Part shown: piece after piece, positions 18,786 through 48,560 of the stretch
Layout of the letters: each line of letters opens with the position of its first letter
How positions within the stretch are numbered: the stretch's first letter is position 1
Assembly: GCA_902763805.1 (NCBI GenBank)
Contig: CACWTN010000004.1
Span: 1-64,000, forward strand
Direction: 5' to 3'
Length of the DNA stretch: 64,000 bases
From: an uncultured bacterium
Lineage (GTDB): Bacteria > Cyanobacteriota > Vampirovibrionia > Gastranaerophilales > Gastranaerophilaceae
Position numbers and translations under genes: made by a program
Notes under the pieces: model-generated
What the model saw: only the letters and a program-made list of their open reading frames with translations
Database searches by the model: none
Told to the model about the DNA's origin: nothing

Positions 18786-18849
18786 TTTACAAAAGTTTAC
18801 ATTATCAAATTAAAAAGGCAATTATCGGAGACAGAAATACTTTATATAT
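18786..18849 (+). promoter_or_regulatory. HLR1-linked promoter, copy A
   Basis: A perfect HLR1 box (18786-18803, TTTACAAA-AG-TTTACATT) is followed by 14 nt, GCAATT (18818-18823), exactly 16 nt and CTTTATATAT (18840-18849). AAGGAG and the ATG at 18878 follow. The GCAATT element falls at the -35 position if CTTTATATAT holds the -10, placing HLR1 at roughly -70 to -53, where cyanobacterial RpaB sites activate. Confidence 0.75.
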
Positions 18850-21350: not shown

Positions 21351-24300
21351 TTAATCTTCAATAATACTGTCACTACCTGCAGTTAATTCAGGAGCACCGA
21401 ACATACCTTCGATTTCTTCCAGAATTGCAGAAGGTTTGCGAGCCTGATTACGTTGAGCAGCTCTCTTCTGAGCTTCTTTATCACGTTCTTCGCTTGCAAA
21501 TGATAAGTGGTGGAAACCTGTACCCGCCGGTATTAATCTACCGATAATTACGTTTTCCTTAAGACCTCTTAACATATCCTTCTTACCGTCAACTGCTGCT
21601 TCTGTAAGGATTCTTGTGGTTTCCTGGAATGAAGCAGCTGAGATAAATGATTCGGTGTTCAATGAAGCTTTTGTAATACCGAGTAACATGTATTCACAAG
21701 TTGCTTCCTGACCGTCATGTTCTCTGACAGCTTTATTTTCATTTTCGAAAGTCTGTACTTCTACCAATTCACCCGGAAGTAAATTAGTATCACCTGAATC
21801 AACTATTCTTACTTTCTTAGTCATCTGACGAACAATAATTTCAACGTGTTTATCAGCGATTTCAACGCCTTGTGAACGATATACACGCTGTACTTCGTCT
21901 ACTAAGTATTGTTGAGCTTCTTCAGGACCACACAGTCTGATGATATCGTGCGGATTAAGAGGACCGCTTGTTAAAGGCTGACCTTTCTTAATCTTTTGAC
22001 CGTTTGTAACAACGATACTTGCATCAATTGCAAACTTGATTTCAGTTCTTGAACCTTCTTCATTTTCAAGATAAAGTCTCGGAACATCGTCTTCAATTTC
22101 AATTCTTGCTGTACCGTCGTATTCAGCCAAAATAGCACAATCTTTAGGTTTACGAGCTTCAAGAAGTTCTTCAACTCTCGGCAAACCTTGAACGATATCG
22201 CCTGTTTTTTCTCTTTCAAATACGAGTGATGCTAACATATCACCGTGTTGAACAAGAGAGCCTTCTTCAACCTGTAACATTGTACCTGGGCTGATTAAAT
22301 AAGGACGACCGTTTCTGATTGTTACCGATTTTGCAGATACATCTACAATCTTACCTGATACTGTAGCAACTTCGCCAGATGATGCAAGCTCTGCATCAAG
22401 CTTAATGAATGCACCTTTCTTAACGGAAGGTTTATTCTTTGTAGCAATTGTTGTTTCATAGTTTGCGCAATTTAACAGCAATCTTCTTGATTCGCTTACA
22501 TCGCCCTTAACAGAAGCTGAACCATCATTCAATGCTAATACTTCAGTTTTAGCAATAGGTGTTTTCGGTTCGATTACATCACCATTCTTAACAAGAAGTT
22601 CGGTTTGTAATGAGTTGTTCAGTTTAGAATTGCCTTCAAGTTCACGACGAACAATTAATGTTTCGAGAACAACAATCTTCAGGCTGCCTTTCTCATCAAG
22701 TTCAACCAAACCTTTAAGGTGTGATAAGTATCCCTGCATCTGAAGAACAAGAGATGTTCTTGTAAGAGTAGCACCGTCAAGATTTCTTACTCTTGCACCG
22801 TCTTTGTACTGTAATTGAGTTACAGGAACAATATTTATAAGCTCATCTGTAGATTCAAACTTAATAGAAACTTCTTTTGGTTCTACGTATATTGTTTGAA
22901 CAGGTCTTACCAAAATCTGAACAGGCTTGTCTTCTATTGATTCTTCTTCAAGAGAAGTTGTATCAATTTCTTCATCCAAGTCATCGATATCAAGATCATC
23001 AAAATCCATTTCCATCAATGTAACGATAGAAGTTTCTTTAACCTTGATACCTTTTGCGATTGTAGTACCTGCTTCAACAACAGAGCCTTCTTCAACTTTA
23101 AGTTCTGACATACTTGATAACGTATGAACTTCACCCGGACGGATAGTAATTTCGTGAATTACACCGTTGAATTCTTTGAACTCAACAATACCGTCGATGT
23201 GGCAATATACGTCTTTAACAACTTCAGTACCTGCTGTAACGAATGTACCGTTATCAACCATTCTCAAAGTTGCATCTTTATTCAGCTGATGAACTTCTTC
23301 AGGAACAAATACTACATTACCCGGTTTTGTAACGATTTGATTTTCGTCAACTTCGATATCTAAGTATTTAATTTCACCTGAAGATGAAACAGAACATTCA
23401 TCATCAATAAGCTCTGCAATAATCATACCGTTTTCAACAGTTGTATCGATAGGAGCTTTAACGATGTATTTTTCATCAGTTTTCTTAACAGTCCATAACT
23501 GTTCTTTCTTAGTTTGTTCAAATTTAGCATTTGAAGGAGCAAGAGAAGCAATAACGATTGTAATTTCCTTACCTGATACAATCTTATTGATTTTGTTCTT
23601 GCCTGACTTAATTTCTTCAACAACTAAATCTTCACCGTATCTGACTTCACCGCCGTGTTCAGAGATGATAAGAGTTTCTGCAAGTCTGTCACCTGCTTTA
23701 ACTTTTTGTTCATCTTCAACAAGAATTTTAGAACCGCCGGGTAAGTTATAAACATCACCGCCGATAACCCAAACGATACCGTTTTTGTTAGCAGTTCTTG
23801 AAATGTTACCCTGTCTGTCTTTCTTTTCGTCAGCAACAAAGTCTTCAAATGATACCATACCTGATATATCAGCGTTGATATCTTTTGTAGCTTTTTCTGT
23901 CAAACGCGATTCATTAGAAGATGGTTTAAACTCAGCAAGTTTAAAATCTTTTTCGATTTTCATACCGTCTTCAAAGAATACTGTTGCACCTGCCGGAATA
24001 TGAATTTTTTCAGATTTTTTACCTGATTTAACTTCAATATCAGCTTCATAAATAGATACTCTAACAACATCACCGTGACGTGTTCTGAGTTCTCTTGTTT
24101 TAAGCTTAGATTCAACAGTACCGGCAAGCGGTGAGTGGATTTCCTTGGTAGCTTCTTTAACGCCGACAGCACCACCTGTGTGGAATGTTCTCATTGTTAA
24201 CTGAGTACCGGGTTCACCAATTGACTGAGCTGCGATAATACCAATAGCTTCACCTATATCAACAAGTTTCTGAGAAGTAAGCGCCCAACCGTAACATTTT

Positions 24301-25211
24301 TGACATACACCGTATTCAAGAGAACAAGTCAAGCCTGAACGAACTTTTAATTCAGTTAAGTTCAGGTGAGAGATTTTCTTGATATCTTTTCTGTCCATTG
24401 TTGTATTTTTAGCAACCAACAATGTTTTACCGTCTTCATCAAAAATATCCTGAGCAACTGTTCTGCCTAGCAATCTGTCGAGCAGAGGAACAATAATTGC
24501 GTCGCCATCCATAATAGGTTTCATATTAATGAATTTTTCACCGCCGCAATCTGCGTCACGAATAATTACGTCTTGTGCAACGTCAACCAAACGTCTTGTT
24601 AAGTAACCAGAGTCAGCTGTTTTCAACGCTGTATCTACAAGACCTTTTCTTGCACCGTAAGAAGAAATGATGTATTCGGTAACGGATAAGCCTTCTTTAA
24701 AGTTAGATGTAATCGGCAAGTCGATGATTTGACCTTGTGCGTCTGCCATCAAACCTCTCATACCAACAAGCTGTGATACCTGAGATAAGTTACCTCTTGC
24801 ACCTGAGAATGCCATCATATATACAGGGTTAAGTTTGTCAAAGTTTTCTACAACCTGTTCAGTAAGTTTTGCGGTTGTTTCAGACCATGTATCAATAACC
24901 TTTGTATATCTTTCTACTTCGGTAATTTCACCTTTTAAATATCTGTGTGTTGATTTTTCAATCTCTTTTTCAGCTTCCTCTAAAAGAGCTTTCTTTGTAT
25001 CAGGAACCTGAAGGTCAGATATAGAAATCGTAACACCTGATTGAGTTGCCATTTTATAACCCAAATTCTTAAGAGTATCAGCAAGTTCAGCTGTTTTAGC
25101 TCCGCCGTATTCCAAATAGATTTGAGCCAGCAACTTATTCAAACCCTTTTTATCCATCTGTTTATTGATGAATTCAGGAGTATGAGTTTTGTGTGTGTAA
25201 GTATTTTCCAT
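21351..25211 (-). CDS. rpoC2: RNA polymerase beta' C-terminal subunit (RpoC2)
   Basis: This is the C-terminal part of beta' as a separate 1286-residue subunit, the cyanobacterial arrangement. Zinc ligands C222, C296, C303 and C306 are in place (RSGLTCSLEYGVCQKCYG). The trigger-loop base GEPGTQLTMRTFHTGG spans 333-348, and the matching GLPRVEELLEARKPK resumes near 1003. The intervening ~650 residues form a string of beta-rich SBHM-type repeats equal to the large SI3 insertion of cyanobacteria. E. coli SI3 is 188 residues. Within it a very acidic tract (DFDDLDIDDLDEE) is notable. It lies 40 nt after rpoC1 and ends the operon with a strong terminator. Confidence 0.97.
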   Translation of the reverse strand: MENTYTHKTHTPEFINKQMDKKGLNKLLAQIYLEYGGAKTAELADTLKNLGYKMATQSGVTISISDLQVPDTKKALLEEAEKEIEKSTHRYLKGEITEVERYTKVIDTWSETTAKLTEQVVENFDKLNPVYMMAFSGARGNLSQVSQLVGMRGLMADAQGQIIDLPITSNFKEGLSVTEYIISSYGARKGLVDTALKTADSGYLTRRLVDVAQDVIIRDADCGGEKFINMKPIMDGDAIIVPLLDRLLGRTVAQDIFDEDGKTLLVAKNTTMDRKDIKKISHLNLTELKVRSGLTCSLEYGVCQKCYGWALTSQKLVDIGEAIGIIAAQSIGEPGTQLTMRTFHTGGAVGVKEATKEIHSPLAGTVESKLKTRELRTRHGDVVRVSIYEADIEVKSGKKSEKIHIPAGATVFFEDGMKIEKDFKLAEFKPSSNESRLTEKATKDINADISGMVSFEDFVADEKKDRQGNISRTANKNGIVWVIGGDVYNLPGGSKILVEDEQKVKAGDRLAETLIISEHGGEVRYGEDLVVEEIKSGKNKINKIVSGKEITIVIASLAPSNAKFEQTKKEQLWTVKKTDEKYIVKAPIDTTVENGMIIAELIDDECSVSSSGEIKYLDIEVDENQIVTKPGNVVFVPEEVHQLNKDATLRMVDNGTFVTAGTEVVKDVYCHIDGIVEFKEFNGVIHEITIRPGEVHTLSSMSELKVEEGSVVEAGTTIAKGIKVKETSIVTLMEMDFDDLDIDDLDEEIDTTSLEEESIEDKPVQILVRPVQTIYVEPKEVSIKFESTDELINIVPVTQLQYKDGARVRNLDGATLTRTSLVLQMQGYLSHLKGLVELDEKGSLKIVVLETLIVRRELEGNSKLNNSLQTELLVKNGDVIEPKTPIAKTEVLALNDGSASVKGDVSESRRLLLNCANYETTIATKNKPSVKKGAFIKLDAELASSGEVATVSGKIVDVSAKSVTIRNGRPYLISPGTMLQVEEGSLVQHGDMLASLVFEREKTGDIVQGLPRVEELLEARKPKDCAILAEYDGTARIEIEDDVPRLYLENEEGSRTEIKFAIDASIVVTNGQKIKKGQPLTSGPLNPHDIIRLCGPEEAQQYLVDEVQRVYRSQGVEIADKHVEIIVRQMTKKVRIVDSGDTNLLPGELVEVQTFENENKAVREHDGQEATCEYMLLGITKASLNTESFISAASFQETTRILTEAAVDGKKDMLRGLKENVIIGRLIPAGTGFHHLSFASEERDKEAQKRAAQRNQARKPSAILEEIEGMFGAPELTAGSDSIIED

Positions 25212-25251: not shown

Positions 25252-26961
25252 CTAAGCAAGAGCCTTTCTTACAGCTTCATTGAATAAAATTCTGCCGACT
25301 GTAGTTTCAATTCTCTTACCTTTTTCATCACGAACCACAATCTTGTCATGGTATGTAATTACCTTAGCTTCCAATGCAGCAATTGCATCCTGGAAGTTAT
25401 AGAAGTAACCTTTAACCTCCTGGTTAGGATCCTTCATAATTGTTAAGTAATACAAACCGAGAACCATATCTTGTGAGTGAGTAATAATCGGTTTTCCGTT
25501 AGCCGGAGCTAATATGTTGTTTGTAGCTAACATAAGCATTCTTGCTTCAGTTTGAGCTTCAATTGACAACGGTACGTGAACAGCCATTTGGTCACCGTCG
25601 AAGTCAGCATTGAATGCCGTACATACCAACGGGTGAAGCTGAATAGCACGTCCTTCAACCAATTTAGGTTCAAATGCCTGAATACCCAATCTGTGAAGGG
25701 TCGGAGCTCTGTTAAGCATTACCGGGTGTCCGTCAATTATTTCTTCCAATATATCCCAAACTTTTGCATCGGAACGTTCAATCATCTTCTTAGCAGATTT
25801 AATGTTTTGAACGTATCCTCTTTCAATAAGTTTGTTAACAACAAACGGCTTGAATAATTCAATTGCCATTTCCTTCGGCAAGCCGCACTGGTTAAGTTTC
25901 AGAGAAGGACCGACAACAATAACTGAACGACCTGAGTAGTCAACACGTTTACCTAATAAGTTTTGACGGAAACGACCCTGTTTACCTTCAATAATATTAG
26001 ATAATGATTTCAGTGCTCTGTTGTTAGGACCAACAACTGTTCTTCCGCGTCTGCCGTTATCTATAAGCGCATCAACAGCTTCCTGAAGCATTCTCTTTTC
26101 ATTTCTTACGATAATTTCAGGAGCACCCATTTCCAGTAATCTCTGTAAACGGTTGTTTCTGTTGATAACTCTTCTGTATAAATCGTTCAAATCAGATGTA
26201 GCAAATCTGCCGCCGTCTAACTGTACCATAGGTCTTAAGTCAGGCGGTGTAACAGGAAGTACATTCATTATCATCCAGGTAGGTTCTGTTTCTGAAGAAA
26301 TAAGAGAATCTAATAATCTCAATCTCTTAATCAGTTTACCTTTCTTTTGAACGGATGTTACACCCTGAGCAAGCTCAGTTCTGATTTCTTCAGCAAGTTC
26401 CTTAGTATTAATTTCACCGAGTAACTTCTGAATAGCTTCAGCACCGATACCTACTTCAAGTTTAGATTCTTCATTTTCTAAGATAAAATCTTCGTATTCT
26501 TCTTCACTCAATAATTGGAATTTCTTGAACGGAGAATCTGCAGGATCAATTACAACATAGTTATTAAAATAAATAACCTGTTCCAAATCCTTCAAAGTCA
26601 TATCAAGAAGCAAACCAAGATATGAAGGAATACCTTTTAAGAACCAAATGTGAGAAACAGGAGCAGCAAGTTTAATGTGTCCCATTCTGTGACGTCTTAC
26701 CTTACTATCCGTAACTTCAACACCACAGCGTTCGCAGATAATACCTTTATGACGTACTCTTTTATACTTTCCGCAATAGCATTCCCAGTCCTTTGTAGGT
26801 CCAAAAATTCTTTCGCAGAACAAACCGTCTCTTTCCGGTTTTAAGGTTCTGTAGTTAATAGTTTCAGGTTTTGTAACCTCGCCGTAAGACCACTTCAGAA
26901 TCCTTTCGGGAGAAGCGATGCTTATGCGTATATAATCAAAATAATCAATACTTGTAGACAA
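25252..26961 (-). CDS. rpoC1: RNA polymerase gamma/beta' N-terminal subunit (RpoC1)
   Basis: This is the N-terminal part of beta' as a separate 569-residue subunit. Zinc ribbon cysteines are C61, C63, C76 and C79. The catalytic Mg-binding [12 protein letters not shown] is near 445-456 and is preceded by the lid/rudder region [11 protein letters not shown]. Splitting beta' at this site is characteristic of Cyanobacteria, their non-photosynthetic sister lineages and plastids. It is 12 nt downstream of rpoB and 40 nt upstream of rpoC2. Confidence 0.98.
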
Positions 26962-26973
26962 TTTCCTATCTCC

Positions 26974-29900
26974 TTATATTTCGCCTAACGTTGTTGAAGT
27001 TTCAAAGAAGTTGATATTCAAGAGTTCTGAATCTATATCAGATAAAGTTCTCTTTGGAGCAGCCTTTCTAAGGTCGTCCATATCAGACATCAAATCTACT
27101 TCAGTACCGTTTTTCTTAGCAACTGTAATATCTAAACCGATACTTTGCAATTCTCTTACAAGTACCTTAAATGATTCAGGAATACCCGGTCTCGGAATAT
27201 TGTCGCCCTTAACAATAGCTTCGTATGCTCTGTTACGTCCATTAACATCATCTGATTTGATAGTTAACATTTCTTGCAGAGTATAAGCTGCGCCGTATGC
27301 TTCAAGCGCCCAAACTTCCATTTCTCCGAATCTTTGTCCGCCGAACTGAGCCTTACCACCTAAAGGTTGTTGTGTTACCAATGAGTAAGGACCTGTTGAA
27401 CGAGCGTGAATCTTATCATCAACCAAGTGAACAAGTTTAAGGATGTATGAAAGACCTACTGCAATAGGTTCATCAAACGGTTCGCCGGTTCTGCCGTCGA
27501 TTAAGTATACTTTACCGTCAGGTCTTACCCAGTCACAGCCTGATTCTTTAATACCTCTCATAAGTTCTGCTTTAGTTGCGATTTCTGATTGGTTATCACC
27601 ATATCTTTCATCGAAAGAAGGTGCTTCATAATGGTCTTTTGTTAAGTATGCTGCTAAACCTAACAAGCATTCATAAGTTTGACCAACGTTCATACGAGAA
27701 GGTACACCAAGAGGGTTAAGAACTATATCAACCGGTGTTCCGTCAGGTAAGAACGGCATGTCTTCCTTCGGTAATATTCTTGAAACAATACCCTTGTTTC
27801 CGTGACGACCTGAAAGTTTATCACCAACAGATACTTTACGTTTTTGAGCAATGTAAACTCTGATAACTGTATTTGCTCCCGGCGGAAGTTCGTCGCCTTT
27901 TTCTCTGTCGAATACCTTAACATCGACAACACGACCGCCTTCACCGTGAGGAACTCTTAATGAGTTATCTTTTACATCTCTTGCTTTTTCAGCGAAGATA
28001 GCTCTCAAAAGTTTTTCTTCCGGCGGATGTTCACTTTCACCCTTCGGAGTAACTTTACCAACAAGAATATCATCTGCATAAACTCTTGCACCGATACGAA
28101 CAATACCTCTTTCGTCCAAGTGTCTTAATGCTTCTTCTGACACATTCGGAATTTCTCTGGTAATTTCTTCAGGTCCGAGTTTTGTTTGTCTTGCATCTAT
28201 TTCTAATTTTTCGATGTGAACTGATGTAAAGATATCATCGTGTACGCATCTTTCAGAAAGTAAGATAGCATCTTCGAAGTTATATCCTTCCCAAGGCATA
28301 TATGCTACCAAAATGTTTTTACCAATTGAAAGTTCTCCGCAGCTTGTTGATGCACCGTCTGCAATTACATCACCTGCTTTAACCTTGTCACCTTCGTGAA
28401 CAATTGGTTTTTGGTTAATACAAGTATCCTGGTTAGAACGAACATATTTCATTAATGTATGTAAGTGAGCTTTTCCGTGTACGTCACGAATAACAATTTC
28501 TTCACCTACAACTCTTTCAACAGTACCGTCACATTTAGCACAAACTACCATACCTGAGTCTTTTGCAACACGGCGTTCCATACCTGTACCTACTACAGGT
28601 CTTTCTGTAATAAGAAGCGGTACTGACTGACGTTGCATGTTTGAACCCATCAGAGCACGGTTAGCATCATCGTGTTCAATAAACGGAATCATTGAAGTTG
28701 CAACCGAGATAATCTGAATTGGGCAAACACCAACGAAGTCTACCTTTGAAGAATCTGACATAATAAATTCAGATTTATATCTTACAGGAACCTGTTTCTG
28801 TTTGAATGTATTATCTTTATTCAACTGAACGTCAGCAGGAGCACAACGGAAGTTTTCGTCTTCGTCAGCTGTCATATAAACAACTTCGTCAGTAACCTTA
28901 CCGTCTTTAACTACAAAGAACGGAGATTCAACGAAACCATAATCGTTAACTCTTGCGTGAGTTGCTAATGAACCTATCAAACCAGCGTTCGGACCTTCAG
29001 GTGTTTCTACCGGACAAATACGACCGTAGTGAGAAGGGTGAATATCACGAACTGCAAAACCTGCTCTTTCTCTCTGTAAACCGCCAGGTCCTAATGCAGA
29101 AACACGTCTTTTGTGAGTAAGTTCTGCGAGCGGGTTAATCTGGTCCATAAACTGAGATAACTGTGAACTTCCGAAGAATTCCTTCAAAGAAGCTACCAAC
29201 GGTTTTGTGTTCAGCAAGTTTAACGGAGTAAGTGTTTCAGAGTCCTGCAATGTCATTCTTTCTTTTACAATTCTTTCAATTCTTGAAAGACCAACTCTGA
29301 ATTGATTTTGAAGAAGTTCACCGACTGAACGGATTCTTCTGTTTCCTAAGTGGTCGATATCATCCAAAGTACCTTCATCATAAGTTAAGTTGATTAAGTA
29401 CTCAATTGAAGCAACGATATCCTGAACTGTTAATGTTCTCTGGTTCTTAGGAATGTTCAGGTTTAATTTTTTGTTTAATTTATAACGACCAACACGACCT
29501 ATATCGTATTTCTTTTCATCAAAGAATCTTGATTCAAGAATTTGACGTCCGCCCTGTGCAGATGCAGGATCGCCAGGTCTTAATTTCTTGTACAAATCAA
29601 TTAAAGCATCATCTGTAGTTTCTGTTGTATCTTTATCCAAAGTCTTTTTCAAGAATTCAAAGTGTGTGAACAAAGATTCCATTTCAGTAACAGTGATACC
29701 CATAGCTTTAAGTAATGTTGTAGCAAGGATTTTTCTGTTTTTATCAATCTTAACGTAGATTACGTCATTTGAATCTGTTTCAATTTTCAACCATGCTCCT
29801 CTGTTAGGAATCATAGTTGCGTTATATAATCTCTTACCAGTTGGAGAGATTTCTCTCTTGAAGTAAACGCCAGGTGAACGAACGATTTGAGAAACGATAA

Positions 29901-30288
29901 CACGTTCTGCACCGTTTACAATGAATGTACCTTTATCAGTCATTGTAGGAATATCACCAATGTATACTTCCTGTTCTTTAATTTCACCGCTGTCACGGTT
30001 AACTAATCTAACCATTACACGAAGCTGTTTAGCATAGGTCGTATCATGGATACGAGCTTCTTCAATCGTGTACTTTGCGTTGTCAAACGTGTAGTTAGGC
30101 AGAAAATGAAGTTCAAGTCTTCCCGTATAATCTTTTACAGGAGAAAAAGCAAGTAATTCTTCTTTAAGCCCTTCCTTTAAAAACCATTCAAATGATTTTT
30201 TTTGCACGTCAATTAAATCCGGTAAATCGTCCAAACGAGTATTTGGTATACCCATTGGCGTTACTCTTTTTGCGTATTCTGTCGACAT
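26974..30288 (-). CDS. rpoB: RNA polymerase beta subunit
   Basis: A full beta subunit of 1104 residues. It contains the rifampicin-pocket region ([22 protein letters not shown], with the HKRR core around residue 394), [10 protein letters not shown], and the C-terminal [24 protein letters not shown] that contacts beta'. A Glu-rich trailing segment follows. AGGTG precedes the ATG. The usual rplJL genes are not upstream; a small unknown gene is there instead. Transcription is expected from the promoter at 30484-30511, leaving a leader of about 190 nt. Confidence 0.98.
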
Positions 30289-30483
30289 TAATTCACCTCA
30301 TTTGTTCTATAGTGATGTACGTTATAATTTATATATTTCAGGGTAGTCAAACGTAACTAAGACTGCGACATACCTTTTAATTATTCAATTTTCATAATCC
30401 CGTGAAGTCTGCTCCACGCTTTTATATTTCAACTTCTCTCATTTGGTCACAGGTATCCCATGTACATGACCGCATGTTATTTC
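30289..30483 (-). other. Leader region of rpoB
   Basis: About 190 nt of untranslated leader between the predicted start of transcription (near 30477) and the rpoB ATG. It has a compact hairpin, bottom strand CGTGGAG-CAGA-CTTCACG (near 30401-30419). No T-run follows it, so attenuation is not proven. No open frame of note was found. Confidence 0.45.
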
Positions 30484-30511
30484 ATCATACGCGGTAAAAA
30501 TCTGTAGTCAA
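30484..30511 (-). promoter_or_regulatory. Promoter of rpoB-rpoC1-rpoC2
   Basis: On the bottom strand TTGACT (30511-30506), 16 nt, TATGAT (30489-30484). The triple HLR1-like repeat at 30550-30577 lies just upstream. Confidence 0.65.
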
Positions 30512-30549
30512 CAAACAAGGGTATTTTTTACAATTTTTCAAGGGGGAAA

Positions 30550-30577
30550 TTTACAAAATTTTACAAAAATTTACAAA
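30550..30577 (+). promoter_or_regulatory. Triple HLR1-type repeat upstream of rpoB
   Basis: TTTACA occurs at 30550, 30560 and 30570 with an exact 10-bp period. Each adjacent pair satisfies the HLR1 consensus. Relative to the rpoB start of transcription it spans about -73 to -100, on the strand opposite to the gene. The stretch also follows the stop of the small gene at 30593. Confidence 0.65.
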
Positions 30578-30592
30578 TATATATAAAAGAAC

Positions 30593-30925
30593 TTATTTTT
30601 GCTGATTTAAATACTCTTGCTTTTGAATTGCAAATCGTTTTTTCTTGATTTTAAATATCTGATTATTTATTGAATCAATTGCTTCCTGCAAAAAGAATAA
30701 TTTATATCTGCATTTTTCTTTTTGATATCCGGTCAGATGTTTATTTATATTTAACGTGCTGATTACTTGACCTGCTTCATTTTCAAGACGAGAAAGTTCT
30801 TTCTTGAGAAGTTTTATTTTATCAATTTCCAAGAAATTCAAATCCAGTTTCGGACCTTTATATGATGACAGAGGTATAAGTCGTCTGCCAGTAAGCGTAA
30901 TAATCGGCTGAATATTTGAGTTCAT
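30593..30925 (-). CDS. Hypothetical protein, 110 residues
   Basis: Not recognised. The N-terminus is Pro/Leu-rich (IQPIITLTGRRLIPLSSYKGP). The rest is basic helical with coiled-coil character (LLKKELSRLENEAGQVI; EAIDSINNQIFKIKKKRF). It has no signal peptide. AAGGGG lies 7 nt before the ATG, supporting a real gene. It stands in the place that rplL occupies in many bacteria but shows no L7/L12 similarity. Confidence 0.6.
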   Translation of the reverse strand: MNSNIQPIITLTGRRLIPLSSYKGPKLDLNFLEIDKIKLLKKELSRLENEAGQVISTLNINKHLTGYQKEKCRYKLFFLQEAIDSINNQIFKIKKKRFAIQKQEYLNQQK

Positions 30926-48542: not shown

Positions 48543-48560
48543 GTTACATATCTTTACATT
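48543..48560 (+). promoter_or_regulatory. HLR1 box upstream of flagellin 4 (perfect match)
   Basis: GTTACATA-TC-TTTACATT, no mismatch to HLR1. It is 109-126 bp upstream of the start codon and on the opposite strand. The 16-nt core is identical to that of promoter copy C at 38769. Confidence 0.65.

Follow-up and report, generated by a model that had tools for sequence, protein, structure and literature searches.

The window, the whole 64,000-nucleotide stretch of DNA that was analysed, carries on its minus strand rpoB (26974–30288, with the ATG at 30288; TIGR02013, 1657.6 bits), rpoC1 (gamma; 25252–26961) and rpoC2 (21351–25211; TIGR02388, 1257.9 bits). The rpoC function is split between rpoC1 and rpoC2, both downstream of rpoB, and the profile matches confirmed the three genes that the first-pass annotation had read there. 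For rpoC1, the score of 954.3 bits with TIGR02387 is slightly below the cut-off of 975.9, and that of 965.2 bits with TIGR02386 is above the cut-off of 963.5. The rpoB promoter (30484–30511, minus strand) consists of a −35 element TTGACT (30511–30506), a 16-bp spacer and a −10 element TATGAT (30489–30484), and is thus of a strong, consensus housekeeping type with an inferred start at about 30477. The inferred leader of 189 nt (30289–30477, minus strand) had no match in Rfam, and a known structured rpoB leader was rejected on that ground.

The gap between the stop side of a 110-aa ORF (30593–30925, minus strand) and the rpoB ATG is 304 bp long and contains, on the plus strand, copies of TTTACA at 30550, 30560 and 30570, exactly 10 bp apart, as the first-pass annotation had reported. 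In the direction of rpoB, the array reads TGTAAA-N4-TGTAAA-N4-TGTAAA, and a fourth TGTAAA follows 23 bp closer to the promoter. The three in-phase copies form two overlapping HLR1-type boxes on the plus strand: a proximal one (30550–30567; TTTACAAA-N2-TTTACAAA, or TGTAAA-N4-TGTAAA in the rpoB direction), which lies at −73 to −90 from the inferred start and is conserved in the genus, and a distal one (30560–30577), which supplies the third half-site (30570–30575). Both are full matches to the 18-bp HLR1 consensus KTTACAWW-N2-KTTACAWW given in the available text of PMC13421787, in agreement with the HLR1 identity proposed for them. The fourth TTTACA (30527–30532, plus strand), 21 bp upstream of the −35 element, is out of the 10-bp series and is kept by most relatives. 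The position of −73 to −100 from the rpoB start given earlier holds for the inferred, unmapped transcription start, from which the array spans −73 to −98, but not for the ATG, from which it spans −262 to −287. The stretch is very AT-rich, with runs of T every 10 bp. Because the 110-aa ORF runs in the same direction as rpoB and has its stop codon at 30593, rpoB is the sole gene downstream of the boxes, and a role of the boxes in serving the ORF was rejected.

Box enrichment in the window and the genome

Single copies of TTTACA are not enriched in the window, with 81 observed and 80 expected. Pairs of KTTACA at a period of 10 were found seven times in the 64-kb window, together with one triple, where the simulated means were about 0.15 and 0, and none of the 600 simulated 64-kb windows (Markov order 2 and order 5, 300 windows each) contained an in-phase triple. 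The whole genome contains 63 copies of KTTACA-N4-KTTACA and 8 of the reversed pattern, and 57 of the 63 boxes were intergenic by a simple ORF caller; intergenic enrichment of HLR1 is what is expected of an RpaB regulon. When pairs of TTACA with any gap of 0–24 were listed, a period of 10 was the most frequent spacing, accounting for 17 of the first 100 pairs listed, and every other period reached at most 9. The density of 63 boxes in 1.96 Mb far exceeds that in most of the photosynthetic genomes examined.

Five other exact boxes lie in the window, at positions 157, 18786, 38769, 43523 and 48543. The first of these has a sigma-28-like promoter 28 bp away, those at 18786 and 38769 adjoin GGCAATT boxes on the KTTACA side, and the one at 48543 is upstream of a flagellin gene. 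Two contigs of the genome (G000:C4 and G000:C14) carry a box and a sigma-28-like promoter at identical coordinates, about 1–172 in both, as a repeated element at contig ends.

The tandem upstream of rpoB in relatives

We obtained rpoB starts in 30 of the 37 genomes searched, counting the genome itself and its relatives; 18 were from the genus, for which 22 genomes were searched. The repeat is not absent before rpoB in close relatives: the exact tandem TGTAAM-N4-TGTAAM was present within 700 bp upstream of rpoB at 17 of the 18 same-genus loci, the eighteenth having a single mismatch. At 16 of the 18, 38 or 39 bp separated the exact tandem from the −35 element, and at one locus (L040) the exact tandem was about one turn further out. 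Mean identity to the commonest base at the same-genus loci was 0.96 in the tandem cores versus 0.47 in the 40-bp upstream flank. A third in-phase copy was found in 4 of the 18 same-genus promoters aligned at the usual 44/45-bp position. The conserved unit is thus two half-sites and the third copy is a local feature, so that the claim of three half-sites stands for rpoB in this genome but not for a conserved unit. The fourth half-site was an exact TGTAAM at 21–22 bp in 9 of the 18 same-genus loci and had at most one mismatch in 17.

When 58 genomes of the genus were scanned for the tandem, a free gap (10–40 allowed) and a promoter, 48 gave matches and none did so with the reversed pattern; among the 68 places listed, the rpoB-type match of exact tandem, 38/39-bp gap and promoter was represented in 44 of the 58 genomes. 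A separate collection with named records provided 80 rpoB loci, mostly from Candidatus Gastranaerophilales and from bins of rumen or gut origin. Grouped as genus-like or other by the match start, 40 of the 43 assessable genus-like loci had the exact tandem versus 7 of the 35 others, two of the 80 (L246 and L274) being too short to assess.

In the family's other genera, the exact tandem in the same orientation was present at 4 of 27 rpoB loci (L065, L066, L087 and L090). The half-site 45 bp before the −35 element was exact at 8 of 27 and had at most one mismatch at 13 of 27, with position means of 0.25 and 0.82; these half-site counts omit L078, with 6 bp of upstream sequence, and L092, a piece of a split rpoB. 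The rpoB core promoter itself is also kept in these genera and in the order's other families. An exact box within 700 bp upstream of rpoB was found at 0 of 12 loci in the order's other families, 0 of 4 in the class and 0 of 25 in the rest of the phylum. Since rpoB lacks the exact box outside the family, the link between HLR1 and rpoB is a derived trait, limited to the family, strong in two of its genera and not general to cyanobacteria; an ancestral cyanobacterial trait was rejected.

Other features of these promoters were also seen. The stretch between the tandem and the −35 element (window 30512–30544, CTTGAAAAATTGTA..ATACCCTTATTA) is itself highly conserved within the genus and may serve another factor or a second promoter. 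Many same-genus rpoB leaders also share their first transcribed bases (ACATGCGGTCATGTACATGGGAT..., window 30440–30480). At ten loci of the order's other families where the HLR1 tandem is absent (L052, L053, L055–L058 and L060–L063), an inverted repeat of variable sequence, identified by eye, abuts or just precedes the −35 element of the conserved rpoB promoter; it could be a terminator of the upstream gene or an element acting at the DNA level. In genome G005 (L064), rpoB is interrupted near the N-terminus and consists of two pieces with one stop, and in G226 (L092 and L093) it is found in two places on different contigs; both are likely assembly faults.

Promoters paired with the boxes

The layout at rpoB recurs at rpsJ (Pfam S10), the first gene of the S10 ribosomal operon, where a box at −89 to −74 precedes TTGACA-N17-TACGAT in the same orientation; the corresponding placement at rpoB is −88 to −73. 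At same-genus rpsJ loci, the tandem was exact in 17 of 20 (16 by script and L210 by eye), with one mismatch in one and two mismatches in two, and its gap to the −35 element was 37–39 or 26–29 bp at the loci with a script-placed promoter. None of the 8 rpsJ loci in other genera had the exact tandem.

Twenty-four of the 63 genomic boxes are upstream of sites resembling TAAAGTTT-N10-12-GCCGATA (at most 3 mismatches of 15), with gaps of 16–18 bp (15 boxes), 27–28 bp (8 boxes) and 32 bp (1 box), all in the TGTAA direction; pairings in the opposite direction numbered two, both being second boxes of the same regions. We call these sites sigma-28-like after the E. coli sigma-28 promoter, which we take to be TAAAGTTT-N11-GCCGATAA. 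Exact matches to the sigma-28 pattern number 26 in the genome, versus 0 for its reverse. The composite of a box and a sigma-28-like site was present in 51 of 292 sampled phylum genomes, all of the same family or order, and every reversed control gave 0; among the 132 matches listed, the gaps were 17–20 or 27–29 and none fell at 21–26, with 15–29 allowed. Eleven of the genomic boxes have a GGCAAWW box at a distance of 15–17 bp, which lies on the TGTAA side in 9 cases. At same-genus housekeeping-type promoters, the gaps from box to −35 element were only 15, 17–20, 29 and 38–39 bp among the 68 places listed (10–40 allowed). The gaps of about 17, 28 and 38 bp are steps of one DNA turn.

The relatives also contain a second family of housekeeping-type promoters, TGTAACGAAATGTAAATAGCAAA..TTGACAAT..TTGATGATnTAAGAT, in which the box is 17–20 bp from the −35 element (matches of 61–64 nt, e.g., G011:C55:13275–13336). 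Among the ORFs neighbouring boxes, 25 of 60 had a Pfam match. Several boxes lie beside dnaN, relA/spoT, ilvC, mutS, rplS and rnpA, but we do not claim a "growth regulon", because the TGTAA direction there points to the other gene and in the clear cases TGTAA faces the promoter. The two genes with a good and correctly directed housekeeping promoter, with the top scores, are rpoB and rpsJ.

RpaB and its predicted action

The genome encodes four OmpR-family DNA-binding regulators, and one of them (G000:C9, 78112–78891) is an RpaB equivalog, with 355.8 bits on NF045944, above the cut-off of 330, and 219.8 bits on the YycF model, below the cut-off of 340. The RpaB-like protein assumed by the first-pass annotation therefore exists. 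Its identity is 71–73% to RpaB from four other members of the phylum and 68% to that of another family of the class (f8), and its recognition-helix segment DTRVVDVHISRLR, of cyanobacterial type, is identical in every aligned RpaB row (own, f8 and phylum-level). Family f8 has RpaB but no enrichment of HLR1 (0–2 matches per strand). Of 30 genomes searched for RpaB, three (G011, G017 and G026) yielded none, though the rpoB tandem is present in the first two and composites of a box and a sigma-28-like site in the third; assembly gaps are likely, as searches of G026 also returned no rpoB. In the available portions of PMC3787301 and PMC5877343, rpaB is reported from melainabacterial genomes with its targets not known, and the former also reports the NblS kinase there and describes the host lineage as non-photosynthetic.

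RpaB is indicated as the reader of the boxes by their consensus, their 10-bp period and the presence of an RpaB equivalog, and it very probably binds the one at rpoB. A direct-repeat binder that holds a fixed face towards the polymerase at distances varying by whole turns behaves as an upstream activator, and we are confident that RpaB, once bound, would activate. The tandem is thus probably a site where RpaB binds and from which, lying upstream, it activates the promoter that the housekeeping sigma uses for rpoB-rpoC1-rpoC2. Two TGTAAA half-sites would hold a head-to-tail dimer of RpaB; the gap of 38/39 bp to the −35 element, amounting to whole turns of the helix, would keep the dimer on one fixed face of the DNA, where it would assist the binding of RNA polymerase at the rpoB promoter; a second dimer might be bound via the third and fourth half-sites. 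The control at rpoB proposed by the first-pass annotation is supported by these results; that RpaB binds and drives rpoB we infer, along with activation over repression and a signal passed by an NblS-like kinase. For an inhabitant of the gut, light is an implausible signal; redox is a guess.

It is unlikely that RpaB at the rpoB box acts as a repressor or brake. Many cyanobacterial genes are repressed by RpaB according to the available text of PMC13421787, and an array of four half-sites could loop the DNA or be a hindrance, but the repressing HLR1 sites described in the same source overlap the start, at −38 to +23, whereas 38 bp separate the rpoB box from the −35 element downstream of it and the spacing shifts by whole turns. 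Reading of the boxes by another OmpR-family regulator of the genome is highly unlikely: three more are present and some box-bearing assemblies have no detected RpaB, but the three score 205.7, 200.1 and 152.4 bits on NF045944, all below 330, their recognition helix differs, and the box is the known RpaB consensus. We give very little credence to protein-free curvature from A-tracts or a UP element for the alpha subunit of the polymerase, which would suit the high AT content and the 10-bp steps of the T-runs; the TGTAA cores are conserved beyond mere AT-richness, the sigma-28-like pairings are 24 in one orientation versus 2 in the other, and the rpoB box is further out than the usual UP element. 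That the array arose in this AT-rich DNA by chance, or as a slipped tandem repeat of 10 bp, in keeping with single TTTACA being at chance level, has a practically negligible probability and was rejected on the lack of triples in the simulations and on the retention of the tandem by 17 of 18 relatives with diverged flanks.

With RpaB as a predicted activator of rpoB, an HLR1-type site, of the kind familiar from light acclimation in cyanobacteria, appears to set RNA polymerase output in a non-photosynthetic gut relative of cyanobacteria, and the ribosomes and some flagellar-type genes are probably under a site of the same type. There is about an even chance that RpaB is a general co-activator, docking whole turns upstream of promoters for the housekeeping sigma (rpoB and the S10 operon), for sigma-28 (many genes) and of the GGCAAWW type, almost always in one orientation, and that the supply of polymerase and ribosomes is thereby coupled to the flagellar-sigma programme. 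RpaB is known for the regulation of photosynthesis genes, yet it is kept by non-photosynthetic relatives, and the available part of PMC3787301 leaves its function there open; the boxes offer a concrete list of targets for RpaB in such a lineage. A two-component regulator that directly governs the operon for the RNA polymerase core, and likewise the S10 operon, would if true be unusual. Our literature search recognised no paper on HLR1 boxes in Gastranaerophilales/Melainabacteria or on rpoB as an RpaB target, although most subscription papers were outside its reach and absence is not proven. The regulator and the box are already known; the target, the host and the promoter partners are new.

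The closest known system is the NblS–RpaB/HLR1 regulon of photosynthetic cyanobacteria, which shares the regulator family (NF045944 above cut-off), the 18-bp consensus, the head-to-tail half-sites at 10 bp and the placing of the box before the promoter. In Synechocystis, activating HLR1 sites lie at about −45 to −66 in the available text of PMC13421787, and that of PMC11633204 gives an activating distance of about 50–100. The rpoB box, which spans −73 to −98 relative to the inferred start, lies outside the Synechocystis position, on the same face and about whole turns further out, and we regard that position as a property of the known Synechocystis targets, not of the motif. The system described here differs in its non-photosynthetic host, its RNA polymerase and S10 operon targets, the greater upstream distance of the box and the sigma-28-like pairings. 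WalR/YycF of Firmicutes is likewise an OmpR-family regulator acting on direct repeats of the TGTAA type, but WalR half-sites are 11 bp apart, whereas a period of 10 dominates here, with 17 versus 3 among the 100 pairs listed. Sites of PhoB-type OmpR-family activators share the head-to-tail direct repeats upstream of a promoter and the helical phasing, but PhoB boxes overlap the −35 element, whereas the gap from box to −35 element is 17–39 bp in the promoters described here.
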